From Paracoccaceae bacterium (lineage in GTDB: Bacteria; Pseudomonadota; Alphaproteobacteria; Rhodobacterales; Rhodobacteraceae): a DNA stretch of 64,000 bases. Numbering within the stretch: the first letter of the stretch is position 1; every line of letters begins with the position of its first letter. The notes beneath the pieces are model-generated. The model was given only the letters and a program-made list of their open reading frames with translations, was not told where the DNA came from and did no database searches. The stretch is from assembly GCA_033344815.1 (NCBI GenBank), contig JAWPMR010000001.1:3396136-3460135 (forward strand), read 5' to 3'. Both the position numbers and the translations under genes were made by a program. This document shows, in pieces, positions 12,295 to 28,907 of the stretch.

Positions 12295-12804
12295 ATGGCG
12301 CGCGAAGGGAGTGACAATAGACGTTTGACGACGCGTTTTTTGCCATTGCCAGATCGAACGGCCAATTCGGCGGCCTGTGATCAATCAAATAGTAACGCTT
12401 GCATGCAAAACCACTGGGCAACCAAGGCTGAACAGGCACATCTAGCCGTGGAGGCGCGTAGACGAATGGCACCCCAGTCAGGAAAGACGGCTGACCATAG
12501 AAGCTGGCAGGAAGCGGTTGAAGCTTTGTCCGCCAGTGTTGGCGCGGATGCAAGTACCGCCCTATCCAGTGAAAAGATGGTCTTGCGTCCGGGCTTTCTG
12601 GCAGTGCAGGACGAGCATCACCACAACGCCGGCATTCACGCCAAGCAAGATCAGACAGCCCAGACGCAAAGCCTGCAAATTTGGCGTCCTTTCATTCAAA
12701 GCCCCTCGGCTCCGGCACAAAAACTTGATGCAGTATACGCCGCTCAGACTGCGTTGTTGTCCGGCATGTCCTGGGACGTAAAGCATCCCGTCGCCCGGAA
12801 ATGA
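12295..12804 (+). CDS. Hypothetical protein coupled to the TPR gene
   Basis: A possible 169-residue protein starting at ATG 12295. Its stop overlaps the start of the following TPR gene as ATGA (12801-12804), which is the main argument that it is real. The sequence is polar, rich in Ala, Gln and His, and shows no motif or membrane segment that I recognise. The frame is open upstream to 11962, but that part runs through the tail-protein fragment. A minus-strand frame over the same bases encodes a hydrophobic stretch, so the coding strand is not certain. Confidence 0.3.
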   Translation: MAREGSDNRRLTTRFLPLPDRTANSAACDQSNSNACMQNHWATKAEQAHLAVEARRRMAPQSGKTADHRSWQEAVEALSASVGADASTALSSEKMVLRPGFLAVQDEHHHNAGIHAKQDQTAQTQSLQIWRPFIQSPSAPAQKLDAVYAAQTALLSGMSWDVKHPVARK

Positions 12805-15787: not shown

Positions 15788-17170
15788 CTAACCGTCGCTT
15801 GATGTTGCTTTGCCAGCACATCGCCCGAGCACAATCGCGCTCAACAAGCCATTGCCTGACAAATAGCCACTGTCACCGCTGCCCGAAACGCCGCAAGCTG
15901 CACCTCCTCCTGCGTAAAGCGTGTCGAAACCTGAGCCGTCGATGCGCAGAACCTGCCCCTTCACGTTCACCCGCAATCCGCCTTGCGTGTGAAAAAGAGC
16001 CCCTGTTACCCGCACGCCAAAAAATGGTGCGGCCAAAGGTGTTTCGCTGAACGTGCGACCGAAATGGTCCGTCCCTCCGAGGGGAAGAGCAGAAACGGTC
16101 TCATCCAAACGATCTATGGGGAGACCAAATACCTCTGCGAGGCCTTGGATCGTTTCGCTGGTCTTTACTGCTCCGGCGACCTCTGCGCGTTTGAAATCTT
16201 CGAATTGTCTCGCGATGGCTGCAATGCGGCTGTCGAAGATGGTGAAAGCTTCGCCGCCGGGTTGGGAAAGCACGGCGCGCGCCGCCTCGGAATAGCCTTG
16301 CATCTCGTTCCAGAAACGGTACCCGTCGCGATTAACTTGAAATCCGCCCTCCGTGATGACCGCCCATGTAATCAGTATTCCATGTGGATGCGCGACGTTT
16401 CCATGTCCTTGGTACGCGCCAAGGTGATGGGTCTGCGCTCCGATTTCATCAGCCCACAGGATCGCCTCGCCGCGGTTGCCATCGTGGCCGAACCAAACCC
16501 CGTCCTGGATTTCGGGCATGTACCGGCCAACCAGATCGCGGTTGCCACCAAAGCCGTTGCAGGCAAGGATCAAACGGTCGCACCCTATGGTTTCTTGTCT
16601 GCCATCTGCCCGGGCCACGGCAATGCCATTGATGTTGCTGTTTTCGTAAAAAAGGATGTGCGCGCGACTCTCACAAATGACGTCGATCTGCAGCGCCTCA
16701 CACCGACTGCGCAGGGCATCAATCAGCTCCGCACCTGATCGCGTTGGAAGACCATGCATCCGGCAACGCGAGTGGCCAGGATAGAGGAAGTCAGTCACGA
16801 CCGAGAACGGCAGTCCATGGGAGTCTGCGAGCCAATCAATCGCATCTGCGGCGTTCGCAGCCATCAAATCCACAAGATACGGGTCATTCTCACCTTTGGC
16901 TTTGGCCTGGATATCGCGGGCAAAAAGAGTTGGGTTGTCATCGATGCCCGCTGCGGCTTGGATTTTTGTGCCCGCCGCCGGGATCAGACCAGCCGACAGC
17001 GCGGTCGAGCCGCCGGGCACGGCATCCGCTTCGATCACCAGGACCTGTTGTCCCGCCTCATGGGCCGAAAGAGCCGCGACCAACCCGCACGCGCCAGCTC
17101 CAATGATCAGTGTTTCACAGGAGATGTCAAAGGCGTCTGGCGGTGGCAGGACCTCAGTCTTTGGCGTCAT
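15788..17170 (-). CDS. FAD-dependent oxidoreductase, fumarate reductase/KstD family
   Basis: A 460-residue flavoprotein. The N-terminus carries the Rossmann dinucleotide motif (LIIGAGACGLVAALSA) and a GG motif (EADAVPGGST). The C-terminus ends with the second FAD contact (YAGGGAACGVSGSG..GYLSGNGLL). Members reduce or desaturate a C-C bond next to a carbonyl or carboxylate, for example fumarate reductases and 3-ketosteroid dehydrogenases. It is the last gene of a six-gene minus-strand operon and overlaps the lyase gene by 17 bases. I chose ATG 17170; a GTG three codons upstream is possible. In the operon it might reduce or oxidise the unsaturated diacid intermediate. There is no Tat or haem motif, so it is probably cytosolic. 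Confidence 0.85.
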   Translation of the reverse strand: MTPKTEVLPPPDAFDISCETLIIGAGACGLVAALSAHEAGQQVLVIEADAVPGGSTALSAGLIPAAGTKIQAAAGIDDNPTLFARDIQAKAKGENDPYLVDLMAANAADAIDWLADSHGLPFSVVTDFLYPGHSRCRMHGLPTRSGAELIDALRSRCEALQIDVICESRAHILFYENSNINGIAVARADGRQETIGCDRLILACNGFGGNRDLVGRYMPEIQDGVWFGHDGNRGEAILWADEIGAQTHHLGAYQGHGNVAHPHGILITWAVITEGGFQVNRDGYRFWNEMQGYSEAARAVLSQPGGEAFTIFDSRIAAIARQFEDFKRAEVAGAVKTSETIQGLAEVFGLPIDRLDETVSALPLGGTDHFGRTFSETPLAAPFFGVRVTGALFHTQGGLRVNVKGQVLRIDGSGFDTLYAGGGAACGVSGSGDSGYLSGNGLLSAIVLGRCAGKATSSDG

Positions 17171-18017
17171 AATGCGCACCTGCTTCCAACTGTTCCGTAG
17201 TGCCGATCACCGCGTTCAAACCTTCAAAATCAAACATGCGATCAGTGAACGGCTTGTTGCTGCCGTTTGCGAGCAGGCTTTGGTAGTAATCCTGCGCAGT
17301 CCGGGCCAAGGCACGCACAATGCCGCCGGGAAAAATTGCAATCGAATAGCCTTGGTGCTCGAGATCCGCAGCGCCAGTGATTGGGGTGGCACCGCCTTCG
17401 ACCATATTGGCCAAGAGCGGCACGCGACCGGTAAACTGGTGCGCAATCTTGCCCAGTTGGTCACGTGTTTGAGGCGCCTCAACAAAGAGCACATCTGCAC
17501 CGGCTTCCAAATAGGCTTCTGCCCTGTCGAGCGCCGCCGAGAATCCTTCAACCGCGATAGCATCCGTCCGCGCGATGATAAGCGTCTCTTCGCTCGCACG
17601 GGCATCGGCCATGGCCCTAATTTTTCCGCTCATTTCGGACGCGGGGATCAGCGACTTGTCTGCAAGATGGCCGCAGCGCTTCGGGTATGTCTGGTCCTCA
17701 AGTTGCAGCGCAGAAGCGCCCGCGCGCTCGTAAACCCGCATGGTGCGTTGCGCGTTCAGCGCGTTGCCAAATCCCGTGTCTGCATCAATGATCACCGGCA
17801 GCTGCGTGCGGTCCGCGATCAACGCCATCGTATCGGCCATCTCGCTTGCGGTGCTAAGCCCGATGTCTGGACGACCCAGTCGCGTGTAGGCCACTGCTGC
17901 GCCGCTGAGATACAGCGCTTCAAACCCTGCATCCGTGGCCAGCGCGGCCGTAATGCCGTCATAGACGCCGGGGGCAACAAGGATGTTTTTGCTTTGAAGT
18001 CGGGTTTTCAGGCTCAT
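17154..18017 (-). CDS. Isocitrate lyase/PEP mutase family C-C lyase
   Basis: A 287-residue protein of the PrpB/oxaloacetate decarboxylase/dimethylmalate lyase group. Visible signatures are SGAAVAYTRLGRPD near the N-terminus, the metal-binding DADTGFG, and the loop signature EDQTYPKRCGH, whose Cys is the usual catalytic residue of C-C lyases in this family. Such enzymes split 2-methylisocitrate, 2,3-dimethylmalate or related hydroxy diacids to pyruvate or glyoxylate plus a carboxylate. Its start overlaps the previous stop as ATGA. An aconitase-type hydratase is encoded divergently in the same locus (23.9-25.9 kb). This is the hydratase/lyase pair used for dimethylmaleate in nicotinate fermentation. 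Confidence 0.85.
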   Translation of the reverse strand: MSLKTRLQSKNILVAPGVYDGITAALATDAGFEALYLSGAAVAYTRLGRPDIGLSTASEMADTMALIADRTQLPVIIDADTGFGNALNAQRTMRVYERAGASALQLEDQTYPKRCGHLADKSLIPASEMSGKIRAMADARASEETLIIARTDAIAVEGFSAALDRAEAYLEAGADVLFVEAPQTRDQLGKIAHQFTGRVPLLANMVEGGATPITGAADLEHQGYSIAIFPGGIVRALARTAQDYYQSLLANGSNKPFTDRMFDFEGLNAVIGTTEQLEAGAHYDAKD

Positions 18018-18634
18018 GCCGCGCCCTCCAGCCAGGCGCGTGCGTCCGCACAGGTCATTTGATGTGTCACCGTACCCAGGGACAACAGCGTTGCATCATG
18101 CACCTCTTGTCGGAAAGCGGCACAGCCATCGCTCAGCATCACCGTTTCGATGTTGCGTAAATGTGCATCCCGTAGCGTCGATGCCACGCCGCCGTTCGTG
18201 ACGATGCCGCCGACGATCAAATGATCCACGCCGACGGCGCGCATGATGTATTCGAGCCGGGTTTGGTAGAAGGCGGAATAGGCGACTTTCTCGATGACAA
18301 GATCAGCCGGGTGCAGGGTATGCACGACCGAGTGTCCGAATGAACCAGGCGCAAAGTCGCCTTTGGCCAAAAACGGGCGCAGCTCTTTCAGGTGCTGTGC
18401 AATCAGAGGCGCGCCATCGCGGTCCGGTACTAACGTGAATTGCGCAGAAATGTAGTGCCCACCTTGTGCGCGCAGCGCGGCCACCAAGGGTGCAATACGC
18501 TCGGGCAAGTCCGCAATGGCATCTGCGGATTGTCCCGCACGTCCGTAAGCGCCCTCCGGATGGATAAAGTCGTTCTGCAGGTCGATGGTCAGCAAAGCCG
18601 TTCGACCCAGATCCCATGTTGTTGGACTACTCAT
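18014..18634 (-). CDS. Isochorismatase-fold protein lacking the catalytic Cys
   Basis: A 206-residue protein of the isochorismatase-like superfamily. The catalytic Asp (D18 in TIDLQNDF) and Lys (K116 in IEKVAYSAF) are present. The position of the nucleophilic Cys, usually TNxCV, reads TNGGV (Gly149), so an amidase mechanism through a thiol is not available as drawn. Family members include maleamate amidohydrolase (NicF), nicotinamidase and RutB, all with Cys. PhzD and EntB lack it and cleave vinyl ethers. Position in the operon (after hyuA, before the lyase) suggests action on the product of ring opening. Both ends overlap neighbours by 4 bases. Confidence 0.8.
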   Translation of the reverse strand: MSSPTTWDLGRTALLTIDLQNDFIHPEGAYGRAGQSADAIADLPERIAPLVAALRAQGGHYISAQFTLVPDRDGAPLIAQHLKELRPFLAKGDFAPGSFGHSVVHTLHPADLVIEKVAYSAFYQTRLEYIMRAVGVDHLIVGGIVTNGGVASTLRDAHLRNIETVMLSDGCAAFRQEVHDATLLSLGTVTHQMTCADARAWLEGAA

Positions 18635-20709
18635 GCGGGAGCCTTCTCTGGTGAGGCCGTCACAGGTTCAATGATGGTGTTGCCAAAACTATCCACACGC
18701 CCCTGTAACGCAGGTTCAATCAAAACTGTCGTGTCCGGCTGGGACAGTATCGCGGGGCCTTTGATGACGGTACCGACGGGCAAAGACAACCGGTCATAAA
18801 TTTCCGTGTCGTGCCACGCGGTGCCAAAATGAACAGGACGCGTTGAAATGGGGTCAACGGCGCCCGTATTGGCCGGAGCAAGGGTGGCCAGGTTAAACTT
18901 CGTGCGTTTCCCCGTGACCGCGCTGCGCAGATTCAATATCCGCTGCACGCCATTCTTCAGAAGCCGACCGAATGTGGCACCATAAGCTGCATCAAAGGCG
19001 GTCTCGATCTCTGCCTTTGTCAAGGCCTGTACCGCGCCGTCTGTCACTGTCACATCAACGGGGACAGACACGGTGTGGGTCTGACCGACATAGGCCATGT
19101 CCAGCTCAAAGCGTAATTCTCGCGCATCGAAGATGGTGCGCGAGGCATCAAGTAGAGCCATCCCCTGGTCCGCGTGCGACTGCATGATTGCCGCCAGAGC
19201 CGTTTCATCCAATGTGCTGACAAGCGTGTTGATCGTTTGCACGAAATCCTGCCGCATATCTGCGATCACACAGCCCATGGCCGAGGTCACACCGGGATAG
19301 CGCGGCACAATCGCGCGCGCGATGCCTGTCTCGGCCAGCATCGCACCAGCATGCAGTGCACCACCGCCCCCAAACGGCATGAAGGCGAAGCGTTTGGGGT
19401 CAAATCCCCGCTCAATTCCCACAAGCCGGATCGCGCCCGCCATTCGGCTGTTGGCAACAGTCAGAATGGCCTCTGCGGCCTCGAGAGTTGTCAGATTCAG
19501 CGACTGGGCGACGTGCGTGTCGATGGCTTTTGCCGCCGCCTTGACGTCCAGTCGATCCAGCTTGCCGCCGATTGGGTTGTCCGGGTCGATGCGCCCCAGG
19601 ACCACATTCGCGTCTGTCACGGTGGGTCGATCATTGCCCAACCCGTAAGCCACAGGACCCGGGTCGGACCCGGCACTTTCAGGTCCGATGTTTAGCAATC
19701 CGCCCTTGTCGACCCATGCGATAGAGCCGCCGCCAGCACCGATCGTCGTAATCTCGATCATCGGGGTCCGCACGACCATGCCAAAGTCGACGGAAGTCTG
19801 CGGTGACAGCATCGACCGACCTTGGGAAATCAACGAGACATCAAAACTTGTCCCTCCCATGTCACCCGTGATCACGTTCTCAAATCCGGCAGATCCCGCA
19901 ATGTAGCCCGCAGCAATCACGCCCGCCGCCGGGCCGGACAGCGCAGTACGCACGGGAAGGCGGCAAGCGGTTTCCACGGCCATCACGCCACCGTTTGACT
20001 GAACGATCATGAATTCACCGTCAAATCCGCCGTCGCGCAGGGCTGTTTCCAACCGGCCCAGATAGCCGGAGACTTCCGGTTGCAGATAGGCATTGAGCGC
20101 GGTTGTCGAGAACCGCTCAAATTCGCGGATTTCTGGTAATATTTCGTGGCTGGCAGAGACATGGTCATTCGGCCAGACCGCGCGCACAGCCGCAACAGCG
20201 GCGGCTTCGTTCTCAGAATTGGCATAAGCGTTGGCAAACAGGACTGCTACAGCAGCACAATCATCGTCCTTCAGCTGCTGCGCCGCCGCGCTTACAGCGT
20301 CCAAATCTACCATTGTGCGTATGGTGCCATCCGCCAGTGTTCGTTCGGGCACTTCGAGGCGGTTGCGCCTGTCCGCAATGGGTTCAAAATCCCCCCGCAA
20401 GCCCCAGGTGCGCGGTCGATCACGCCGCCGCATTTCAAGTACATCGCGCAACCCTTCGGTGCAGATCACCCCGGTCTTCGCGCCTTTGCGTTCAAGCAAG
20501 GCGTTTGTCCCAGCCGTGGTGCCGTGCACCACAACAGCAATCTCAGACAAATCATCAATTTCTCGCCTGATGCCATCCAGAAATCCGGCGGCTTGATCTG
20601 GCCGCGTGGTTGGCACCTTGGCAACTCTTGCGGTGCCTTCGGTTTCATTCAGAACAAAAACGTCTGTGAACGTGCCACCGACATCCACGCCGATCATGAG
20701 TTTGCTCAT
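18631..20709 (-). CDS. hyuA: Hydantoinase/oxoprolinase subunit A
   Basis: A 692-residue protein of the HyuA/N-methylhydantoinase A family. It starts MSKLMIGVDVGGTFTDVFV, which is the phosphate-1 loop of the actin-like ATPase fold, and has HGTTAGTNALLER and NGGVMAVETA family blocks. With HyuB it hydrolyses a cyclic amide (hydantoin, 5-oxoproline, lactam) using ATP. I place the start at ATG 20709, overlapping the hyuB stop as ATGA; the frame extends to 20916 but only through hyuB. The substrate cannot be read from sequence, since the same family includes acetone carboxylase and caprolactamase subunits. Confidence 0.9.
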   Translation of the reverse strand: MSKLMIGVDVGGTFTDVFVLNETEGTARVAKVPTTRPDQAAGFLDGIRREIDDLSEIAVVVHGTTAGTNALLERKGAKTGVICTEGLRDVLEMRRRDRPRTWGLRGDFEPIADRRNRLEVPERTLADGTIRTMVDLDAVSAAAQQLKDDDCAAVAVLFANAYANSENEAAAVAAVRAVWPNDHVSASHEILPEIREFERFSTTALNAYLQPEVSGYLGRLETALRDGGFDGEFMIVQSNGGVMAVETACRLPVRTALSGPAAGVIAAGYIAGSAGFENVITGDMGGTSFDVSLISQGRSMLSPQTSVDFGMVVRTPMIEITTIGAGGGSIAWVDKGGLLNIGPESAGSDPGPVAYGLGNDRPTVTDANVVLGRIDPDNPIGGKLDRLDVKAAAKAIDTHVAQSLNLTTLEAAEAILTVANSRMAGAIRLVGIERGFDPKRFAFMPFGGGGALHAGAMLAETGIARAIVPRYPGVTSAMGCVIADMRQDFVQTINTLVSTLDETALAAIMQSHADQGMALLDASRTIFDARELRFELDMAYVGQTHTVSVPVDVTVTDGAVQALTKAEIETAFDAAYGATFGRLLKNGVQRILNLRSAVTGKRTKFNLATLAPANTGAVDPISTRPVHFGTAWHDTEIYDRLSLPVGTVIKGPAILSQPDTTVLIEPALQGRVDSFGNTIIEPVTASPEKAPA

Positions 20710-22400
20710 TGCGCGGCCTCCCGCCATAACGGGCCATAGGTTTCGTCGGCCTTCACAGCGCTCACCAGCCCGCGCGCAACGTCGCGAGCCACATCCGCGG
20801 GCGCCCGATCCCGGGCAGCGCCATACCCTCCACCGCCAGGGGTTTCGAGGCGTACGGCTTGACCTTGTCGCAATTTGATTCCGCGCATCTTGGAGGCGAG
20901 GGGAGGACGCAACCATCCCTCATCCTGCTCATAGGAGAATACATTCAATGCCGCATCAGATCCGTCCGCGATACCCTTTGGCGCAAAGCGTCCACGTTCG
21001 CCAAAAAGAAATGCTTCGGCACCGTTTTCCTCAAGTACTTCAATCTCGTAGATCGCGCCCGTGCCTCCTCGATGTGTCCCGGCGCCTGCGCTGTCAGGGC
21101 GCAGGGCCCATGTGCGAAACATCACCGGATACGCCGCCTCGAGGATTTCCATCGGGGGGATTGTCGCAGTTGAGATGGGCGCGTTTCCGTGGTTCAAACC
21201 ATCCGTTTCAATAGAGCCCCCGTGCCCGCCCCCGTAAAAACTGAACATGACCCAAGGCTGTCCGTTGCTGCGTTTTCCTGCAATCGACAGCGCGTTGATC
21301 GTGCCATAGGCATTGGCAACGACACGTGTCGGGGCGGCCTTGGCAAAGGCGGAAAACACCACGTCGATCATCCGCAAGATGGTTTCGGTATACCCCCCTG
21401 TCGGGGCTGGAAATTCGGCGGACAACAGCGAGCCTTCGGGTACGACAACATCGATGGGGCGCATCACACCAGCATTGGCGGGCAACACGGGGAAGATATG
21501 TTTGATCGCCACGTAGGCCGTCGCAACAGTTGTCGGCAGTGCGATGTTTACAGGGCCCGCGCATTGATCCGCCGAACCTGTGAAATCCAAGGTCATACGG
21601 TCGTTTTTAATCTCTAGAGCCACTTTGATTGAAAGCGGTTCGTCCGTTATGCCGTCATTATCGAGGAAATCCTCGGCCTCCCAACGACCATCCGGCAGCT
21701 CTTGCAGCTCCGAGCGCATAAGTGTTTCAGCACGGTTGCCAAGCGCGTCCAATGCGCTTGTAACGGTCTGGGTGCTATATTCATCCAGTAGTTCGTCCAT
21801 CCGTCTGATCCCAAGATCAAGCGCGTTGAGCTGGCCATTCAAATCCCCCATCGCCGATTGCGGCAGCCGCGTATTGCGCAACAGAATGTCGATGATGTCC
21901 TGGTTGATTTCCCCCGCGCGTGCCAATTTGACCGGTGGTAAAACGAAGGCTTCCTGAAAAACATCTGTGGCAGCAGGATTGTAATTGCCCGGCACCGCGC
22001 CACCGACATCATGCCAATGTCCGACCGACGCGAGATAGCAAAACAATTCGCCGTCGCGGAAATAGGGCCGAACCAGCCGCATATCACTCAGGTGCGTTCC
22101 GCCGATATGCGCGTCATTGAAAATATAGATGTCGCCATCTTTCAAGTCGCCGTCACTGGCCGCCTTTTCAATCACGGCTTGCACGGCAAATGACATTACA
22201 CCGACAAAAATCGGAAGACCGGATTTGCCTTGCACAAGCGTATCGCCTGAAGCGCCATGATACAGGCCATGGCTGGCATCATGCGCTTCGGCGATGATTG
22301 GATTGAAGGCCGCACGAAACAGCGTGGCGTCCATTTCATCGGCGATCTGCTCCATCCTGCCTGCCAGAACGGACAAGGTGATTGGGTCAATATCTGTCAT
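20706..22400 (-). CDS. hyuB: Hydantoinase/oxoprolinase subunit B
   Basis: A 564-residue HyuB-family protein beginning MTDIDPITLSVLAGRMEQIA, with the family blocks DAHIGGTHLSDM, VGHWHDVGG and GAGTHRGGTGAIYE. The conserved His and Asp residues of the first blocks belong to the metal-containing hydrolytic site of HyuB. It pairs with HyuA for ATP-dependent ring opening. It overlaps the gene before it and the gene after it by 4 bases each, which implies coupled, equimolar translation. Confidence 0.9.
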   Translation of the reverse strand: MTDIDPITLSVLAGRMEQIADEMDATLFRAAFNPIIAEAHDASHGLYHGASGDTLVQGKSGLPIFVGVMSFAVQAVIEKAASDGDLKDGDIYIFNDAHIGGTHLSDMRLVRPYFRDGELFCYLASVGHWHDVGGAVPGNYNPAATDVFQEAFVLPPVKLARAGEINQDIIDILLRNTRLPQSAMGDLNGQLNALDLGIRRMDELLDEYSTQTVTSALDALGNRAETLMRSELQELPDGRWEAEDFLDNDGITDEPLSIKVALEIKNDRMTLDFTGSADQCAGPVNIALPTTVATAYVAIKHIFPVLPANAGVMRPIDVVVPEGSLLSAEFPAPTGGYTETILRMIDVVFSAFAKAAPTRVVANAYGTINALSIAGKRSNGQPWVMFSFYGGGHGGSIETDGLNHGNAPISTATIPPMEILEAAYPVMFRTWALRPDSAGAGTHRGGTGAIYEIEVLEENGAEAFLFGERGRFAPKGIADGSDAALNVFSYEQDEGWLRPPLASKMRGIKLRQGQAVRLETPGGGGYGAARDRAPADVARDVARGLVSAVKADETYGPLWREAAQ

Positions 22401-22963
22401 AAACCAGCTTTCGTTTCAGCGATGTCGTTCCAGACATCCTGTTTGGTGAGCATGCTACCCACGACCTCGAAACGGTCGATGAAGCGAATTCCCGTGAACT
22501 TGGTGCCATCGGGCCATTCACCGGAAAGCGTGCCCCGGCAGTATACGATTGCGGCATCCCCAGCACTCTGCATGGCGTCAAAGCCCTCATAGGTCTTGGT
22601 GACAAACCGGTAGCGTGCACTGGCCCAGGACATCAACTCTTGCAGAGCAGACATCGGGCCTGTGCCAGGAAACTGCATTTGAAAATCTGGGGACAGGAAA
22701 GATTGTGCATACTCGACGTCGCGGGCTTCCATCGCCGACAGAAAAGATCGCACTGTCTCAGATGGGTCAGCCTTGGCGGGCGCGGGCGTTCGCGGGGTAC
22801 GGCCGCGGTGATAATTCTCGCGCGCGATGTCATGGATCAGGATCGTTACCAATTCTGGTGCAGCGGGTACGACGAATCGCACAGCGTCAGTCAGAGCATT
22901 GCCAAGACGCTGTTTCGCCTCTGCGTCATAGCCTTCCAGAACATGTAGTTCGACAATCGGCAT
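22397..22963 (-). CDS. Tautomerase/NTF2-like (SnoaL) fusion protein
   Basis: A 188-residue two-domain protein. Residues 1-65 resemble 4-oxalocrotonate tautomerase subunits, with the required Pro directly after the initiator Met (MPIVELHVLEGYDAEAKQRL). After an Ala/Pro-rich linker (TPRTPAPAKADPSE), residues 75-188 form a SnoaL/NTF2-like cone domain. Tautomerases of this type interconvert keto and enol or shift double bonds. It is the first gene of the six-gene minus operon, so it sits next to the divergent regulatory region with a possible GntR operator. The fusion of these two small folds is uncommon and may couple isomerisation with binding of the same ligand. Confidence 0.8.
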   Translation of the reverse strand: MPIVELHVLEGYDAEAKQRLGNALTDAVRFVVPAAPELVTILIHDIARENYHRGRTPRTPAPAKADPSETVRSFLSAMEARDVEYAQSFLSPDFQMQFPGTGPMSALQELMSWASARYRFVTKTYEGFDAMQSAGDAAIVYCRGTLSGEWPDGTKFTGIRFIDRFEVVGSMLTKQDVWNDIAETKAGL

Positions 22964-22995
22964 GCAGTCCTCCCGCGCATATCTGTATTACTGAT

Positions 22996-23012
22996 AATAC
23001 ATTTAATGTATT
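22996..23012. promoter_or_regulatory. Inverted repeat in the divergent promoter region, likely GntR operator
   Basis: A perfect inverted repeat AATACAT-TTA-ATGTATT in an AT-rich stretch between the minus-strand operon (start 22963) and the gntR gene (start 23105). Its size and symmetry suit a dimeric GntR/HutC-type regulator. It could repress both divergent operons. Confidence 0.6.
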
Positions 23013-23104
23013 TTTGTTAAGTCAAATTTTGCTTGCAAAAATTCACGATCTTAGCTCTTTTATAGCGTGAAGGATGTGAGCGCAGCTTTTTGGGGAGGGT
23101 GTTT

Positions 23105-23911
23105 GTGGAAATCGTCGGGTCAATCGCTTTGCCTGAAGGGGCCAAGGCCAGGCGTGTTTTCCTGTCGCTGCACGATCAGATTTCTGACGGGCGGATTTGT
23201 GATGGTGAGACTTTGCCGGGCGAAAAACGGCTGGCGGAAACTTATGGCGTCTCTCGTGTTACAGTGCGCCGCGCGTTGGATGCACTCAGTGAAACGGGTC
23301 TCATCGAAAAGCGAGCAGGCAGTGGGACAACCGTGCGCTCCAAGGTGCTGATGGGCAAACGCGCGGCGATGAGTTTCAATACGCTGATGCCGCAGCTGGT
23401 GGAAATGGGCCAATCGACAACGGCGCGTCTCTTGTCCTTTTTCTACGGTCAGCCCCCAGATTATGTCGGCCAAGCGATGGGATTGACGTCGTCCGAAAAG
23501 GTACAGATCGCGACCCGCGTGCGCCTGAGCGACGGCGCGCCGTTTTCGCACCTTACGACCTATGTCCCAAGTGCCATTGCCAAGAACTATTCCGAAAACG
23601 ATCTGGCGACGACGCCTTTGTTCAAGCTCCTTGAGCGTGGCGGTGTGCAAATCAAAGAGGCGCATCAATCGGTGTCTGCCACGCTTGCCGGTCCAGAAGT
23701 TGCCGAAGCACTTGAAGTGGCTGTGGGTTCAGCGTTGCTGTCCCTGAAACGCGTGGTGCGGGATGTGGACGGGAATGGCGTCGAATTTCTGTCCGGCCTC
23801 TACCGACCCGATATGTTCAGCCTTGAAATGCCGCTTGCCCGCGTGGGCGACGGCGTCGGACGGCACTGGGAACCTGCGATTGGTCAGGCCGAGCAAGAAG
23901 AGCAGATATGA
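23105..23911 (+). CDS. GntR/HutC-family transcriptional regulator
   Basis: A 268-residue regulator. The N-terminal winged helix shows LPGEKRLAETYGVSRVTVRRALDALSETGLI, and the rest is a UTRA effector-binding domain (SLKRVVRDVDGNGVEFLSGLYRPD). I chose GTG 23105 because a GGGGAGGG ribosome site lies 6 bases upstream; a TTG at 23090 in frame would overlap that site. The stop overlaps the next start as ATGA, so regulator and hydratase are co-translated. It most likely senses the substrate or an intermediate of this catabolic locus and acts at the inverted repeat at 22996-23012. Confidence 0.9.
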   Translation: MEIVGSIALPEGAKARRVFLSLHDQISDGRICDGETLPGEKRLAETYGVSRVTVRRALDALSETGLIEKRAGSGTTVRSKVLMGKRAAMSFNTLMPQLVEMGQSTTARLLSFFYGQPPDYVGQAMGLTSSEKVQIATRVRLSDGAPFSHLTTYVPSAIAKNYSENDLATTPLFKLLERGGVQIKEAHQSVSATLAGPEVAEALEVAVGSALLSLKRVVRDVDGNGVEFLSGLYRPDMFSLEMPLARVGDGVGRHWEPAIGQAEQEEQI

Positions 23912-25314
23912 GGTCGCCGCAGACCCTTTTGGATAAGCTTTGGCGCGCGCATGAAGTTTTGCGGCGCGCTGACGGCGTGTCTCTTTTGTGGGTGGACCGT
24001 CACCTTGTGCACGAAGGCTCGCACCATGCCTTTGCCAAGCTGGCAGCGCGGGGCATGACCGTTGCAGAGCCTGGGCAAACCTTTGCCATGGTTGACCATT
24101 ATGCGCCTACGCGCATGCGCGCGCATATTGTAGACCCGCAGATCAAACGCATGATCGACACGCTGCGCCGAAATGCTTGCGATCACGGGCTGAGGCTGTT
24201 TGATCTGGAGAACCCGGCGCAGGGTATTGTCCATGTGGTCGGGCCAGAACAAGGCCTTACCTTGCCGGGGCTTTTGATCAATTGTGGTGACAGTCACACC
24301 TCGACCCATGGCGCGTTCGGAGCCTTGGCTTTTGGGATCGGTGCGACGGAAGTGGCGCATGTGCTGGCCACGCAAACCGTTTGGCAGAAAAAGCCCAAGG
24401 CGATGCGGATCAGTGTGGAGGGTACACTTGGTGCGGGCGTAACGGCAAAGGACATCGCGCTGAACTGGATTGCGCGTTTGGGCACGGGCGGTGCGCAGGG
24501 ACACGCGCTGGAATACGCGGGCAGCACCATTCGCGCGCTGTCGATGGAAGGTCGCATGACGCTGTGCAACCTGTCAATTGAAGGTGGCGCGCGGTTCGGA
24601 TTGATCGCGCCAGATGACATCACAGCGGCCTATGTCAAGGGACGCCCTTATGCGCCGCAAGGCAATGACTGGACGGCGGCAGAGCAAGCCTGGGGCGCTT
24701 TGACGTCAGACGACGAGGCCGCGTTTGACAATGATGTACGGATAGATGCCGCCGATATCGCACCGACGGTGACTTGGGGCACCAGCCCCGAGCAAGCTTT
24801 ACCTATCGATGCAGCCCTCCCGCATCCGTCCGCACTGGATGATAGCAAGGCAGATGCCACTGCCGCCGCGCTGGACTATATGGGGTTGACGGCTGGTCGC
24901 AGCTTGGCTGGAACGCCGGTCGATGAGGTCTTTATCGGGTCCTGCACCAATGGCCGTATCGAGGATTTGCGCGCCGCTGCTGCCGTGATGGCGGGCCGCC
25001 GCGCCAAAGTGCCGGGGCTTGTCTCGCCTGGCTCGCAACTGGTCAAAGTTCAGGCCGAGCAAGAGGGGCTGGATCAGGTGTTCACCGATGCAGGACTGGA
25101 ATGGGCTGCGTCTGGTTGTTCGATGTGTGTAGGCATGAATGGCGATCTGGTGGCGCGAGGCAAACGCTGCGCCTCGTCCACAAACCGCAACTTCCGAGGT
25201 CGCCAGGGGCCTGGCGCACGCACGCATTTGATGTCGCCTGCTATGGTGGCCGCGGCCGCCATAACGGGCGAGATTTGCGATGTGCGGCCGCTGTTGCAGG
25301 GGCGGGTAGCGTAA
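23908..25314 (+). CDS. Aconitase-family hydratase, large subunit (LeuC-like)
   Basis: A 468-residue [4Fe-4S] dehydratase of the LeuC/homoaconitase type. The three cluster cysteines are visible in IGSCTNGR and SGCSMCVGMN, and substrate-binding GDSHTSTHG is present. Compared with LeuC the central region is divergent, so true isopropylmalate isomerase function is unlikely. Two-subunit enzymes of this family hydrate maleate, citraconate or dimethylmaleate. The gene overlaps gntR by 4 bases and the small-subunit gene by one base. Confidence 0.88.
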   Translation: MRSPQTLLDKLWRAHEVLRRADGVSLLWVDRHLVHEGSHHAFAKLAARGMTVAEPGQTFAMVDHYAPTRMRAHIVDPQIKRMIDTLRRNACDHGLRLFDLENPAQGIVHVVGPEQGLTLPGLLINCGDSHTSTHGAFGALAFGIGATEVAHVLATQTVWQKKPKAMRISVEGTLGAGVTAKDIALNWIARLGTGGAQGHALEYAGSTIRALSMEGRMTLCNLSIEGGARFGLIAPDDITAAYVKGRPYAPQGNDWTAAEQAWGALTSDDEAAFDNDVRIDAADIAPTVTWGTSPEQALPIDAALPHPSALDDSKADATAAALDYMGLTAGRSLAGTPVDEVFIGSCTNGRIEDLRAAAAVMAGRRAKVPGLVSPGSQLVKVQAEQEGLDQVFTDAGLEWAASGCSMCVGMNGDLVARGKRCASSTNRNFRGRQGPGARTHLMSPAMVAAAAITGEICDVRPLLQGRVA

Positions 25315-25925
25315 TGGCGGGGTGGCGCTCGCATGAAGGGGTGGCGTTGGCCCTGCCAATTGACAACATCGATACAGATCAGTTGATCCCTGCGCGGTTC
25401 ATGTCCGCGCTGCGCAGCGAAGGTTATGGCGAGTTTCTGTTACACGACATGCGGCGCGATGAGCATGGTATTCTTGACCCGGCCTTCCCTCTGAACACGA
25501 ACAGGCAAGCGAGTGTACTGGTTGCCGGTGCAAACTTCGGCAGCGGATCCTCGCGGGAAGCCGCCGTCTACGCGCTGGTCGATGCAGGTTTCAAGGCAGT
25601 CTTCGCGCCCAGTTTTGGCGATATATTTGCGAGTAATGCTGTGAACAACGGGCTTCTGCCAGCGTGCGTTGAAAGAGCAAACTGCGACGCACTGCTCAAG
25701 CACACCAGTACCGGGACCTGCGTAGTCAGGATCGATTTAGACACCTGCCGTGCGACGTTTGACCAAAAGACCGTTTCATTCGCTCTCGAGCAAAACTGGC
25801 GTACCAAACTGGTCAACGGCTGGGACGATATCGACCTAACGCAACAGCACGCACAAGAAATCAAGCAATTTAAAGATCACCACCATCGAGCGGCACCCTG
25901 GGCCTTGCCCGCAACGCTGGATTGA
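25314..25925 (+). CDS. Aconitase-family hydratase, small subunit (LeuD-like)
   Basis: A 203-residue swivel-domain subunit. Recognisable LeuD features are IDNIDTDQLIPARF near the N-terminus and NFGSGSSREAAVYAL (active-site Arg and Ser loop), then FAPSFGDIFASNAVNNGLLP. It completes the hydratase with the preceding large subunit. The start ATG 25314 shares one base with the TAA of that gene. About 100 bases separate it from the TRAP transporter genes. Confidence 0.88.
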   Translation: MAGWRSHEGVALALPIDNIDTDQLIPARFMSALRSEGYGEFLLHDMRRDEHGILDPAFPLNTNRQASVLVAGANFGSGSSREAAVYALVDAGFKAVFAPSFGDIFASNAVNNGLLPACVERANCDALLKHTSTGTCVVRIDLDTCRATFDQKTVSFALEQNWRTKLVNGWDDIDLTQQHAQEIKQFKDHHHRAAPWALPATLD

Positions 25926-26021
25926 AACGCGCGGCATTCGCTGCACATAACGACATCCGGGAGATGTCAAAACAAAAGGGCGATGAGAACACTTTCGCTC
26001 ACACCAAATGGGAGACTTCAA

Positions 26022-27035
26022 ATGAAGATGACACTGTGGGGCGGCATTCTGGCCAGTTCGACATTTGCAGCGAGCATTGCGCAAGCGGAAGAGACAATTT
26101 CTGCGGTGCACGCATTTCCTGAAAGCCTGATCTATACCCAGAGCTTTTTGTCGTTTGTGGACAAAGTGAACGCTGCGGGCGAAGGAATAGTGCAGATTGA
26201 CGTACGTGGTGGCCCTGAGGCGATTGGCATGTTCCAGCAGCCCGACGCCGTACGCGACGGGATCGTCGACATGGTCTATACGCCGGGCTCCTTTTACGGT
26301 GGCGCATTGCCCGAGAAGGACGCGATGGTGGCGTCGAACCTGACGGCTGTGGAAACACGCATGAACGGCGGCATCGAGTTGATCGACCAGATCCACCAAG
26401 AGAAGATGGGTCTCAAGTATCTCGGTTGGTTTGACAGCGGCGTTTGCTACAACCTGTGGACGCGCGATGAGCCATCCTTTGACGCGGACGGAAATCTGGA
26501 GGTCGAGGGGCTCAAGTTGCGCGGCAACAACGTCTATAATGCGTTCTTCACCAATTATCTGAACGCCCAAGTGATTGATCTGCCAACCGGCGAGGTATAT
26601 TCAGCCCTGCAGCGCGGCGTCGTAGACGCTACGGGTTGGACACAGATTGGCTTGATTGACCTGAAGTGGAATGAGTTTCTGAACTACCGGATCGAACCGT
26701 GCTTCTTTTCCACAGACCTTGGTGTGATCGTCAATAACGATAAATGGAATTCACTGTCTGAAGAGGCAAGAACGATCGTTCAGGACGTGGCCATTCAACA
26801 CGAAAAAGACAGTGTTGAAGCCTTGCGCGCCAAGCGTGACGAAGATTTTGCCGCGCTGGACGCCGCTGGCATGAAGGTTGTCTCCCTCGAAGGCGACGCC
26901 AAGGCGAAATACCTTGCTGCGGCACGCGAAAAAACCTGGGAGCGGATGGAGACCGTCATGGCGGAGCAGCCCGGTGGCACCGGAAATTATGACCGTCTGC
27001 TTGAGCTGTTCTACGATCTTGATGCTGCGAAGTAA
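26022..27035 (+). CDS. dctP: TRAP transporter substrate-binding protein (DctP family)
   Basis: A 337-residue periplasmic binding protein with an N-terminal signal peptide (MKMTLWGGILASSTFAASIA, cleavage likely after AQA). The mature part has the DctP fold signature region (GLKLRGNNVYNAFF, GEVYSALQRGVVDATGW). The conserved carboxylate-binding Arg is probably in LKLRGN. TRAP binding proteins deliver organic acids to a DctQM sodium symporter. I placed the start at 26022 after a GGGAGACTT ribosome site. Its place beside the hydratase suggests the ligand is the carboxylate or imide fed into this pathway. Confidence 0.9.
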   Translation: MKMTLWGGILASSTFAASIAQAEETISAVHAFPESLIYTQSFLSFVDKVNAAGEGIVQIDVRGGPEAIGMFQQPDAVRDGIVDMVYTPGSFYGGALPEKDAMVASNLTAVETRMNGGIELIDQIHQEKMGLKYLGWFDSGVCYNLWTRDEPSFDADGNLEVEGLKLRGNNVYNAFFTNYLNAQVIDLPTGEVYSALQRGVVDATGWTQIGLIDLKWNEFLNYRIEPCFFSTDLGVIVNNDKWNSLSEEARTIVQDVAIQHEKDSVEALRAKRDEDFAALDAAGMKVVSLEGDAKAKYLAAAREKTWERMETVMAEQPGGTGNYDRLLELFYDLDAAK

Positions 27036-27099
27036 GTAACGTGTGGGACGGTCCCTGGATCGGCCCACTTCCTACAACCTGAATGAAAGATCAAGGCCA

Positions 27100-27600
27100 G
27101 TGATTTCCAAGCTTTATACAGCGCTGGTCGATCTTTTGGCTTTCATTGCGGGCGCGACCCTGGTTTGGCTCATGGTGTCTGTGATTGTCTCAGTGCTGAT
27201 GCGCAATACCGGGCTGCAACCCTTTGCATGGCTCTTCACCTCCGCGGAATACGGGCTTTTGTATATGACAATGCTGGGCGCGCCTTGGCTGGTGCGTGAA
27301 AAGGGACATGTGCACATCGAATTGGTCACCGCGGTTTTGCCGGCTGCCGCGCGCCGCATTGTGAGCCGCATTGTTGCGATTGCCTGCGTTCTGGTGTGTC
27401 TGATCCTCGCATGGAAAGGGATCGACCTGTTCCTGACCAACATCGCGCGGGGTGACGTCGACACACGCGCCTATTATTACCCCCGATGGCTGCTCACCAT
27501 CACGTTCCCCATCAGCTTTGGACTCATGGCCATTGAATTTGCGCGTTTCGTCTTTGGGACCGAGCTGATGCACTCCGGCGAAGCAGGAATTCACGAATAA
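27100..27600 (+). CDS. dctQ: TRAP transporter small membrane subunit (DctQ family)
   Basis: A protein of about 166 residues with four membrane segments (for example LLAFIAGATLVWLMVSVIVSV and IVAIACVLVCLILAW) and the DctQ pattern of a conserved EKGHVHIE cytoplasmic loop. The start is uncertain: GTG 27100 with AAGG upstream gives MISKLYTALVDLL, while ATG 27043 adds 19 polar residues. It ends one base into the start of dctM (TAATG). Confidence 0.85.
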   Translation: MISKLYTALVDLLAFIAGATLVWLMVSVIVSVLMRNTGLQPFAWLFTSAEYGLLYMTMLGAPWLVREKGHVHIELVTAVLPAAARRIVSRIVAIACVLVCLILAWKGIDLFLTNIARGDVDTRAYYYPRWLLTITFPISFGLMAIEFARFVFGTELMHSGEAGIHE

Positions 27601-28907
27601 TGGAATGGTTCGAAGCGCTTGCCCTGCTTATTGGCGCCATCATGTTTCTTATGGCGCTTGGCATGCCCGTGGCCTTGGCCTTTCTTGCGGCCAACATTCT
27701 CGGTGCCTGGGTTTTCATGGGTGGCGAGCGTGGAGTCGGGCAGCTTTTGAACAACGGACTTGGTTCGCTTACAAAATACGCGTTGGTGCCGATCCCGCTG
27801 TTCTTGTTGATGGGAGAGGTGTTTTTCCATACAGGTCTCGGGGGGCGCATGTTCAGCGCCATTGACAAATTGCTTGGCCGCCTGCCGGGTCGCCTGAGTT
27901 ATGTCACCGTTCTGGGGGGCACGGCGTTCTCGACGCTGTCTGGTTCCTCCATGGGATCCACCGCGCTTTTGGGTTCGCTTATGGTGCCAGAGATGGGGCG
28001 GCGTGGATACAAACCTCACATGAGCATCGGGCCCATACTGGGCACGGGCGGTTTGGCGATTATCATCCCGCCCTCTGCTTTGGCCGTGCTATTGGCGACG
28101 CTCGCCCAAATTGATGTGGCCGCTTTGCTCATCGCGGGCGTTATTCCCGGTCTGATCCTTGCGAGCTTCTATATTGCCACGATCTGGCTTCAGACAAAAA
28201 TCGATCCCACAGCGGCACCGGCGTATGATGTCGAGCCGATGACATTTGGCCAAAAGATCGGTCTGTTGCTCACCGAAGTGGTGCCGATGGTGGGCGTGAT
28301 GGTCGTGATAATCATATTGATGATCCAGGGGTTCGTGACCCCGTCCGAGGCTGCGGCATTTGGCGCGCTCGGGGTGATGCTACTGGCCGCTGTTTTCCGG
28401 TGCCTGACATGGGAGGCAATGCGCAAGTCGGTCGTTGGCGCGTTGCGCGTGACGTTGATGGCCTATCTCATCGTGTTCGGCTCGGCTACTTTCAGCCAAC
28501 TCCTGGCGTTTTCCGGCGCTTCGCGGGGGCTGGTCAATTGGGCAACCTCCTATGAACTGGCGCCGCTCGTCATGCTTCTGGTGATGTTCGCGGTCTTGCT
28601 CCTCTTGGGGATGTTCATGGAGCAAATCTCGATGATGTTGCTCACAGTGCCGATTTTCTTCCCATTGGCACAAACGCTTGGCTTCGATCCGATCTGGTTT
28701 GGCCTGATCATGTTGCTTGCACTGGAGATCAGTTTCACGACACCGCCCTTTGGATTGCTCTTGTTCGTCATGAAGGGGGTGGCCCCAAAGGGCACAACCA
28801 TGCGGCAGATCTATACGTCTGCATTTCCATTCATCGGCTGCTCGTTGCTGCTGGTTGCTCTCTTGATCGCGTTTCCCCAGTTGGCGCTTTGGCTGCCTTC
28901 ATTGTAA
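27600..28907 (+). CDS. dctM: TRAP transporter large membrane subunit (DctM family)
   Basis: A 435-residue membrane protein with about twelve hydrophobic segments and the DctM signature region (GLGGRMFSAIDKLLGRLPG, TLSGSSMGSTALLGSLMVPE, GPILGTGGLAIIIPPS). It forms the sodium-coupled translocation channel with DctQ. It is the last gene of the plus-strand operon. I see no strong hairpin terminator directly behind it. Confidence 0.92.
   Translation: MEWFEALALLIGAIMFLMALGMPVALAFLAANILGAWVFMGGERGVGQLLNNGLGSLTKYALVPIPLFLLMGEVFFHTGLGGRMFSAIDKLLGRLPGRLSYVTVLGGTAFSTLSGSSMGSTALLGSLMVPEMGRRGYKPHMSIGPILGTGGLAIIIPPSALAVLLATLAQIDVAALLIAGVIPGLILASFYIATIWLQTKIDPTAAPAYDVEPMTFGQKIGLLLTEVVPMVGVMVVIIILMIQGFVTPSEAAAFGALGVMLLAAVFRCLTWEAMRKSVVGALRVTLMAYLIVFGSATFSQLLAFSGASRGLVNWATSYELAPLVMLLVMFAVLLLLGMFMEQISMMLLTVPIFFPLAQTLGFDPIWFGLIMLLALEISFTTPPFGLLLFVMKGVAPKGTTMRQIYTSAFPFIGCSLLLVALLIAFPQLALWLPSL

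Follow-up and report, generated by a model that had tools for sequence, protein, structure and literature searches.

A co-conserved gene module of Alpha- and Betaproteobacteria with a proposed role in the breakdown of a carboxyethyl-substituted maleimide, possibly hematinic acid

In a 64,000-nucleotide stretch of the genome of a Paracoccaceae bacterium (contig JAWPMR010000001.1; this whole stretch is called the window), 12 genes named by hidden Markov model and similarity searches form two divergent runs at positions 15788–28907 (Table 1). The minus-strand run encodes an FAD_binding_2 flavoprotein, a PrpB-like lyase, an isochorismatase-fold protein, HyuA, HyuB, and a tautomerase fused to a SnoaL_2 domain, and the plus-strand run encodes a GntR/UTRA regulator, LeuC- and LeuD-like proteins, and the TRAP importer components DctP, DctQ, and DctM. 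Most adjacent frames overlap or abut, as is typical of tight operons. All genes named in the original prediction, which read this locus as a route from a cyclic imide through a maleate and a malate to two small acids, are present. We propose that they constitute a module for the catabolism of a maleimide with a carboxyethyl side chain, hematinic acid (3-(2-carboxyethyl)-4-methylmaleimide) being the most likely one, a reading that we consider about as probable as all its alternatives taken together.

Table 1. Genes and other features of the module (positions in the window)
Feature	Position	Strand	Basis
FAD-dependent oxidoreductase (FAD_binding_2; flavocytochrome c/TcuA-like)	15788..17179	-	PF00890 9.8e-51; TIGR01813 245 bits, under cut-off 285
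Isocitrate lyase/PEP mutase family lyase, nearest to 2-methylisocitrate lyase PrpB	17154..18017	-	TIGR02317 prpB 291 bits; KRCGH
Isochorismatase-fold hydrolase without catalytic Cys (GIVTNGGVAST)	18014..18634	-	PF00857 8.2e-33
HyuA, ATP-binding subunit of ATP-dependent cyclic amide hydrolase (caprolactamase/hydantoinase/oxoprolinase family)	18631..20709	-	Hydant_A_N and Hydantoinase_A
HyuB, metal-binding subunit of cyclic amide hydrolase	20706..22400	-	Hydantoinase_B 7.9e-167
Tautomerase (Pro-1 kept) fused to SnoaL-like domain	22397..22963	-	PF01361 and PF12680
Inverted repeat TGTATTACTGATAATACA, putative GntR operator	22984..23001	.	Between the two runs
GntR/UTRA (HutC-like) regulator, start uncertain	23108..23911	+	PF00392, PF07702
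LeuC-type hydratase large subunit	23908..25314	+	TIGR00170 618 bits
LeuD-type hydratase small subunit, TAATG overlap with LeuC	25314..25925	+	TIGR00171 151 bits
DctP, TRAP importer substrate-binding protein	26022..27035	+	PF03480 2.8e-24
DctQ, TRAP importer small permease	27043..27600	+	66% to annotated TRAP small permease of L079
DctM, TRAP importer large permease	27600..28907	+	82% to annotated TRAP large permease of L079

The start of HyuA at 20709 was placed from its ATGA overlap with HyuB, and positions 18631–20697 were used as the search query.

Related loci were collected in two main ways. For the own-family loci the tautomerase fusion served as the marker. It was matched in 83 of 394 family genomes (weak SnoaL-only matches included); 40 loci, mostly strong matches, were selected from these 83 genomes, and each was read over 16–20 kb. 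For the genome-collection loci and for the class and phylum loci the marker was the isochorismatase-fold gene. The genome collection was scanned with one genome per species, using patterns that include GIVTNGGVA and thus favour close kin and a Gly residue; the best 80 of at least 585 relatives were evaluated. In each set the selecting gene is present by construction, and the presence of genes was scored by tblastn at identity thresholds that we set. In total, 157 loci were obtained, including repeats of one record, and 144 of them are distinct.

The isochorismatase-fold gene is present in 37 of the 40 own-family loci. All 37 contain HyuA and HyuB, 36 each contain the lyase, LeuC, the FAD protein, and the GntR regulator, and 29 contain DctP. 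All nine core genes (TRAP aside) were found in 34 of the 40 loci, in identical order and on identical strands in all 34, and 28 loci carry the TRAP genes in addition. Among the best 80 genome-collection loci, the lyase and HyuA were found in all 80, HyuB in 78, the flavoprotein in 74, LeuC in 73, and the tautomerase in 69; all nine core genes are present in 62, where order and strands are again the same throughout. The co-conservation that the original prediction had put forward as a check is borne out. Seven of the best 80 lack a hydratase, but five of these lie on contigs of 3–8 kb, and the other two (L128 and L139) are truncated by the start of the contig. The gene cluster occurs in many bacteria of sea and soil. 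In Alpha- and Betaproteobacteria its co-travelling set consists of HyuAB, the isochorismatase-fold protein, an isocitrate-lyase-type lyase, and a hydratase, and the tautomerase, flavoprotein, and transporter are less constant than the rest. Close relatives occur in 26 of 385 genomes sampled from the class, 8 of 398 from the phylum, and 4 of 19 in the genus (window genome counted); the module is an accessory trait.

Different enzymes occupy the hydratase position. The LeuC- and LeuD-like proteins of the window score above the respective NCBIfam cut-offs (618 against 560 bits and 151 against 116 bits), and the former is 56% identical to a second LeuC-type protein of the same genome (G000:C1:2274593). 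Judged by these scores, the large subunit is a LeuC-type paralogue, other than the shorter HacA/IPMI-archaeal kind. In Azospirillum (L082), a run of lyase, HyuB, HyuA, isochorismatase-fold protein, FAD protein, LeuC, and LeuD lies behind a branched-chain ABC importer. An MmgE/PrpD protein takes the place of LeuCD in Roseomonas (L083) and Neorhizobium (L078), and a shorter hydratase pair was found in Paraburkholderia (L085), in Variovorax (L086), and in 16 of 31 loci from the class and phylum samples. The L085 pair exceeds the cut-offs of the models for the HacA family (homoaconitate hydratase; 407 bits) and for LeuD/DmdB. The hydration step is thus filled by LeuCD, short HacA/DmdB, or MmgE/PrpD types according to lineage, with the other module genes constant. 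These enzymes come from families that add water to, or remove it from, aconitate- or alkylmaleate-like acids, and their exchange in one slot indicates both that the step is needed and what its chemistry is. A role of the LeuCD pair in leucine synthesis seems unlikely, because the genome has a second LeuC-type gene and other hydratases fill the slot elsewhere.

The best models for HyuA and HyuB are the caprolactamase subunits CapA (494 bits) and CapB (307 bits), both below cut-offs of 1000. By sequence, HyuAB is a member of the ATP-dependent cyclic amide hydrolase family, though not necessarily a caprolactamase. The metal ligands of CapB are given as Asp41, His99, Asp102, and His124 (PMC8453981). 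HyuB contains Asp41-His103-Asp106-His128, invariant in 135 of 135 sequences, with the last three spaced as in the CapB tetrad. ATP-dependent hydrolysis of a ring amide would be the natural reading; HyuAB may instead carry out a carboxylation, as the same metal ligands are found in carboxylases. A route from a hydantoin to an amino acid through N-carbamoyl hydrolysis was considered and rejected, because it gives the hydratase and lyase nothing to do.

The isochorismatase-fold protein lacks the cysteine that an amidase of this fold would be expected to use. In an alignment with solved relatives, Gly149 aligns with the catalytic Cys of RutB and of the triuret hydrolase TrtA. Among 141 distinct homologues of at least 45% identity (L086, L218, and L230, which fall under the coverage limit, are omitted), the catalytic residues Asp18 and Lys116 are kept in all 141, whereas residue 149 is Gly in 140, Ala in one, and Cys in none. 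After removal of the motif-selected loci, Gly149 is still present in 72 of 73 distinct homologues, and the single Ala149 belongs to L223, a locus without HyuAB. The ordinary cysteine amidase of the original prediction was accordingly abandoned. In true isochorismatases such as EntB and PhzD, which we take to act by acid catalysis on a vinyl ether, the corresponding residue is presumably likewise Gly (non-Cys).

This resemblance opens an alternative in which HyuAB cleaves a lactam or hydantoin, the Cys-less protein acts in the manner of an isochorismatase on an enol ether or enamide, and some other acid feeds the hydratase and lyase. The Cys-to-Gly replacement, the HutC-like regulator, and the nearest HyuAB models (caprolactamase and acetophenone carboxylase, all below cut-off) would fit it. 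However, the closest solved relatives of the protein are triuret hydrolase (63 bits) and RutB (58 bits) rather than 2fq1, a named isochorismatase (35 bits), and the maleate-type acid that the hydratase requires would most simply arise from an imide; we regard this alternative as unlikely. The top solved relative, 3kl2, is named a putative isochorismatase but contains the Cys.

We propose that the substrate itself assists the Cys-less enzyme in removing ammonia. TrtA is described as having an Asp-Lys-Cys triad and as being inactive when carrying the C162S substitution (PMC7948467), and N-alkylmaleamic acids are described as shedding their amine through attack by the neighbouring carboxyl group (PMC3913492). 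By analogy, an alkylmaleamate could act as its own nucleophile, and an acid and a base would then be enough in the absence of a cysteine.

Enzymes of the lyase family cleave R1-C(OH)(COOH)-CH(COOH)-R2 to R1-CO-COOH and R2-CH2-COOH, so that both side chains of the substrate can be read from the products. The lyase of the module falls below the cut-off of the prpB model TIGR02317 (291 against 354 bits), and its best solved match is PrpB (192 bits), with 2,3-dimethylmalate lyase at 172 bits. In a table of 149 lyase rows (window included, repeats kept), Asp58, Asp85, Asp87, Glu115, Cys123, Arg158, Glu188, and Asn210 of PrpB, eight residues that we take to be the catalytic set, are invariant. Phe186, Pro236, and an Ile in place of Leu234 (PrpB numbering) are also kept, a Phe186/Ile234/Pro236 pattern that presumably separates methylisocitrate lyases from isocitrate lyases. 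This PrpB-like pattern points to methyl as R1, and one of the two products would be pyruvate.

The other product is suggested by genes linked to the module in other genomes. In locus L084, on plasmid pTM2 of Tistrella, the isochorismatase-fold gene and LeuCD are separated by genes for an acyl-CoA dehydrogenase and for a family III CoA-transferase. The best model for this CoA-transferase is succinate-glutarate CoA-transferase (533 bits, cut-off 750), followed by one at 295 bits; for the linked CoA-transferases overall, this model gives 512–533 bits and the runner-up at most 297. Glutarate was predicted after the CoA-transferase had been named and before the dehydrogenase, then still marked with a question mark, was compared. 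The L084 dehydrogenase matches the solved glutaryl-CoA dehydrogenase 1sir with 620 bits and 4w9u, named only acyl-CoA dehydrogenase, with 600 bits, and the first chain with another enzyme name follows at 243 bits. For the L154 dehydrogenase, the top match is 4w9u, glutaryl-CoA dehydrogenase 3d6b gives 575 bits, and the first chain of another name or type gives 226 bits.

A second arrangement, with HyuB, HyuA, the isochorismatase-fold gene, the lyase, the FAD gene, the dehydrogenase, and the CoA-transferase all on one strand, was found in Marivita, in metagenome-assembled genomes (MAGs) of Nitratireductor and Cohaesibacteraceae, and in others; the best solved relatives differ between the two arrangements (1sir and 4w9u). 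The dehydrogenase alone is present in L061, L146 (cut), and L160. In L202, from a family other than that of Tistrella, the CoA-transferase is flanked by the isochorismatase-fold gene and LeuC, and the lyase is on the far side of the regulator. At thresholds of at least 60% identity for the dehydrogenase and at least 48% for the CoA-transferase, the 157 loci contain the dehydrogenase in 15, the CoA-transferase in 13, both in 12, and either in 16, or 14 distinct loci after removal of the repeats L060/L157 and L084/L211. All of these linked genes share the strand of the adjacent core gene, and the dehydrogenase lies within 110 bp of a core gene. In an unselected clustering of 954 accessory open reading frames (ORFs) from the 144 distinct loci, ABC ATPases ranked first (18 loci), followed by the dehydrogenase and the CoA-transferase (8 loci each, as the ORFs were called); the next cluster, a PotA-type ATPase in 7 loci, is at least 0.85 kb away and on the opposite strand in 6 of 7. 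On a HyuB tree (FastTree) built from 78 of 136 rows, comprising all linked loci, all non-LeuCD loci, and approximately one-third of the rest, with short flanks counted as absences, the linkage requires at least six changes, which argues that it is more than one lucky neighbour; a single old linkage with later losses is possible.

The linkage of genes of the glutaryl-CoA dehydrogenase and glutarate CoA-transferase types suggests that the lyase product is probably glutarate rather than propionate, the product expected in the original prediction by comparison with dimethylmaleate. Direct hydrolysis of a glutarimide or lactam to glutarate, with the hydratase and lyase serving another purpose, might also bring such genes to the locus, and in Tistrella they do adjoin the isochorismatase-fold gene in a run without a lyase. 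This explanation is very improbable, however, because the lyase is present in all of the best 80 genome-collection loci and stands beside the CoA-transferase in L202, and because LeuCD is also part of the Tistrella run.

A glutarate product implies a carboxyethyl group as R2. Pyruvate and glutarate from a methylisocitrate-type lyase lead back to 2-(2-carboxyethyl)-3-methylmaleate as the precursor of the hydration step, and the corresponding imide is hematinic acid. In the route that we propose, in which every substrate and reaction is deduced from the gene set, its co-conservation, the residue patterns, and the operon linkage, the acid would be imported by the TRAP system, and HyuAB would use ATP to open its imide ring, giving the half-amide (maleamate). 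From this, the isochorismatase-fold enzyme without the Cys would release ammonia and leave 2-(2-carboxyethyl)-3-methylmaleate, with the cis carboxylate of the substrate as the nucleophile, a cyclic anhydride as the intermediate, and Asp18 and Lys116 as acid and base. Addition of water by the LeuCD-type hydratase (elsewhere by the PrpD or short HacA/DmdB type) would give 2-methylhomoisocitrate, which the lyase, proposed on its sequence to be a 2-methylhomoisocitrate lyase, would cleave to pyruvate and glutarate. Glutarate could then be converted through glutaryl-CoA to crotonyl-CoA by candidate enzymes whose genes are unlinked to the module here and linked in other genomes. The flavoprotein and tautomerase would probably allow the entry of dihydro and isomeric forms, e.g. 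those from the reduced ring D of chlorophyll; this ring would yield a dihydro form, for which a TcuA-like flavoprotein would be a fitting oxidase.

Of the original chain, the frame from imide through maleate and malate to two acids is supported by the co-conserved set, whereas its cysteine amidase step fell and its propionate product probably does as well. Two less specific claims, hydration of a substituted maleate by the module and formation of glutarate by its lyase, are each more probable than the identification of hematinic acid. That this is a complete, widespread, and undescribed hematinic acid pathway, including Cys-free, carboxylate-assisted ammonia release and use of chlorin-derived forms through the flavoprotein, is a tentative proposal that we hold to be less probable than not.

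Two neighbouring substrates were weighed against hematinic acid. A small alkylmaleimide (citraconimide, dimethylmaleimide, or ethylmethylmaleimide) would yield pyruvate or another 2-oxoacid together with propionate or butyrate. The kinds of enzymes match what we take to be the dimethylmaleate hydratase and lyase of nicotinate fermentation, and the module lyase is related to 2,3-dimethylmalate lyase. However, the linked genes are of the glutarate type, the lyase is nearer to PrpB, a tricarboxylate lyase, and DctP keeps an arginine that we assume to contact a carboxylate, whereas these imides carry none; a small alkylmaleimide is therefore a rather unlikely substrate. An unmethylated 3-(2-carboxyethyl)maleimide, processed through cis-homoaconitate and homoisocitrate to glyoxylate and glutarate, accounts for glutarate and for the match of the short hydratases to the homoaconitate hydratase family, but the lyase residues are PrpB-like and not, by the signature as we understand it, isocitrate-lyase-like, and we know of no common natural source of this compound. 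A DUF4147/MOFRL gene, presumably of the glycerate 2-kinase type, also lies beside the module in five loci (L106, L116, L117:2374–3630, L118, and L167:14264–15664; on the opposite strand in four), as might be needed for the use of glyoxylate. This gene and the loci lacking HyuAB or the hydratase reduce our confidence in hematinic acid slightly and raise that in the glyoxylate-forming route, which is still improbable.

Several further observations weigh against the hematinic acid route. The DUF4147/MOFRL recurrence could mean that glyoxylate is used instead of pyruvate, the flavoprotein and tautomerase are without a firm role, and no isochorismatase-fold enzyme without the Cys is known to us as an amide hydrolase. 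The 31 class/phylum loci, some of which are cut by contig ends, contain HyuA in 29, HyuB in 28, the lyase in 24, and a recognised hydratase in 23. In L222 and L223 the isochorismatase-fold gene occurs without HyuAB, and L074 has neither the lyase nor a close hydratase. Our queries recognised no hydratase in L087 (Allorhizobium), L226, and L230, and none of the flanking ORFs scanned there (2, 2, and 1, respectively) encodes one. The Tistrella pTM2 loci have no local lyase, a 66% identical lyase being encoded on pTM1 (L077). No NCBIfam model was above its cut-off for the linked dehydrogenases (FadE 235–247 bits; Desulfo-type glutaryl-CoA dehydrogenase 212–215 bits; for L084, 235 and 215 bits), and the CoA-transferases remain under the cut-off of 750. 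All linked loci fall on the LeuCD side of the HyuB tree, no glutarate genes were found near the short-hydratase loci at the thresholds given above, and the best dehydrogenase (76%) and CoA-transferase (58%) of the window genome are unlinked to the module.

The proposed hematinic acid route would repeat the lower 2-methylcitrate cycle with one additional carbon, fed by the ATP-driven opening of an imide. In that cycle, as we understand it (AcnB/PrpD and PrpB), a methylated cis-aconitate-type acid is hydrated, and a PrpB-type lyase then splits the product into pyruvate and a dicarboxylate; a PrpD-family hydratase is present in some module lineages. The module differs in that its proposed substrate is longer by one CH2, yielding glutarate and not succinate, that it is fed by imide opening and not by propionyl-CoA, and that its lyase is under the PrpB cut-off. 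The pathway of DmdAB and 2,3-dimethylmalate lyase presumably also combines a two-subunit aconitase-type hydratase with an isocitrate-lyase-family lyase acting on a dialkylmaleate, but the hydratase of the window is of the LeuCD type, HyuAB is to our understanding no part of the DmdAB route, and the glutarate-type genes suggest a tricarboxylate. CapAB and the N-methylhydantoinase HyuAB share the two-subunit architecture and metal ligands with the module HyuAB, whereas the CapAB model scores are far from the cut-offs, the partner genes differ, and the substrate presumably does too. In the N-methylhydantoin route, ring opening by HyuAB is, we assume, followed by N-carbamoylsarcosine amidase, an isochorismatase-fold enzyme acting on a C–N bond, and NicF maleamate amidohydrolase presumably acts on such a bond as well; both are taken to use an Asp-Lys-Cys triad, in which the module protein has Gly for Cys. 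TrtA, an enzyme of this fold that acts on a C–N bond, is described with the same triad (PMC7948467). Fungal nicotinate breakdown by HxnM and HxnN similarly proceeds from an imide through a half-amide to a diacid and nitrogen, but HxnM belongs to another hydrolase family and its substrate is a hydroxyglutarimide, and passages of PMC9304392 on these two enzymes name no hydratase–lyase pair.

A tetrapyrrole-derived maleimide, suggested earlier as a marine source, is plausible, and hematinic acid, one of the compounds then named, is the best fit given the glutarate-type genes. According to passages in PMC7318184 and PMC12860425, maleimides including hematinic acid are end products of tetrapyrroles that are also found in fossil leaves, and hematinic acid occurs in senescent leaves, in lake sediments, and in chlorophyll breakdown; ChuS is described as releasing it from heme (PMC11442138). 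Among the papers listed by our literature searches on hematinic acid use and imide catabolism, none describes a bacterial hematinic acid pathway, and those listed for the gene set and the dimethylmaleate enzymes gave nothing on point. Tetrapyrroles are abundant pigments, and such a pathway would tell who consumes hematinic acid, the propionate-bearing monopyrrole in which the decay of heme, bilins, and chlorophyll ends. If the proposal is true, many roseobacters and some soil bacteria hold a ready route for the carbon and nitrogen of this compound, gene counts in metagenomes could mark the last step of pigment decay, the lyase has a new specificity, and, as far as we know, no other amide-releasing enzyme of the isochorismatase fold does without a catalytic cysteine.

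An exact TGTATTA-N4-TAATACA inverted repeat separates the two runs; with at most two mismatches, it was found in 62 of 89 distinct intergenic regions against 3 of 1780 shuffles, the motif having been derived from the same regions and the shuffles being single-letter. This repeat is likely the operator of the GntR regulator. The DctP arginine considered above, Arg167, is invariant (83 of 83) and, as the presumed usual carboxylate contact, fits a carboxylate substrate; a comparison of solved binding proteins for substrate hints gave no named ligand. The RFxxExxGYS motif of the flavoprotein is kept in 116 of 116 sequences, and the protein is absent from Paraburkholderia and from four Rhodobacterales-type loci with full flanks (L106, L116, L130, and L133). 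Its proposed role is an optional oxidation step that may bring a saturated (dihydro) imide or tricarboxylate to the level of a maleate. Pro at position 2 of the tautomerase fusion is kept in 107 of 110, and the tautomerase domain is proposed as a possible isomerase for side substrates. SnoaL-only proteins of Salmonella plasmids, annotated as nuclear transport factor 2 family, share 42–43% identity with the latter half of the fusion.

Additional gene families and rearranged loci were also observed. Genes of the Asp/Glu/hydantoin racemase family lie beside the module in Neorhizobium (two; L078:11891–13317) and on Tistrella pTM1 (two), and another family occurs in five loci (L088, L116, L117, L118 at 12610–13617, and L129); these proteins are perhaps cis-trans or epimer isomerases. 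L074 (4049–17361) carries the FAD, isochorismatase-fold, HyuAB, tautomerase, and TRAP genes, with a distant LeuCD pair (34–46%) beside an HMGL-like synthase. The three own-family loci without the isochorismatase-fold gene (L058, L071, and L076) contain the fusion either by itself or accompanied by the regulator and the transporter; in L058 (9738–14243) the fusion, the GntR regulator, and DctPQM are kept and the catabolic genes are gone, possibly through partial loss of the module. L132 is Ruegeria pomeroyi strain SZCCDBG043, a module carrier in a tractable species. In Tistrella mobilis, half-clusters that complement each other lie on separate plasmids: PrpD, lyase, tautomerase, FAD protein, racemases, and PrpD on pTM1 (L077:7657–14681), and HyuAB, isochorismatase-fold protein, dehydrogenase, CoA-transferase, and LeuCD on pTM2 (L084:5245–15178). 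HyuA of L084 (7899–9934; L211 is the same record) was matched as two overlapping pieces in different frames, which may reflect a broken gene or a sequence error.

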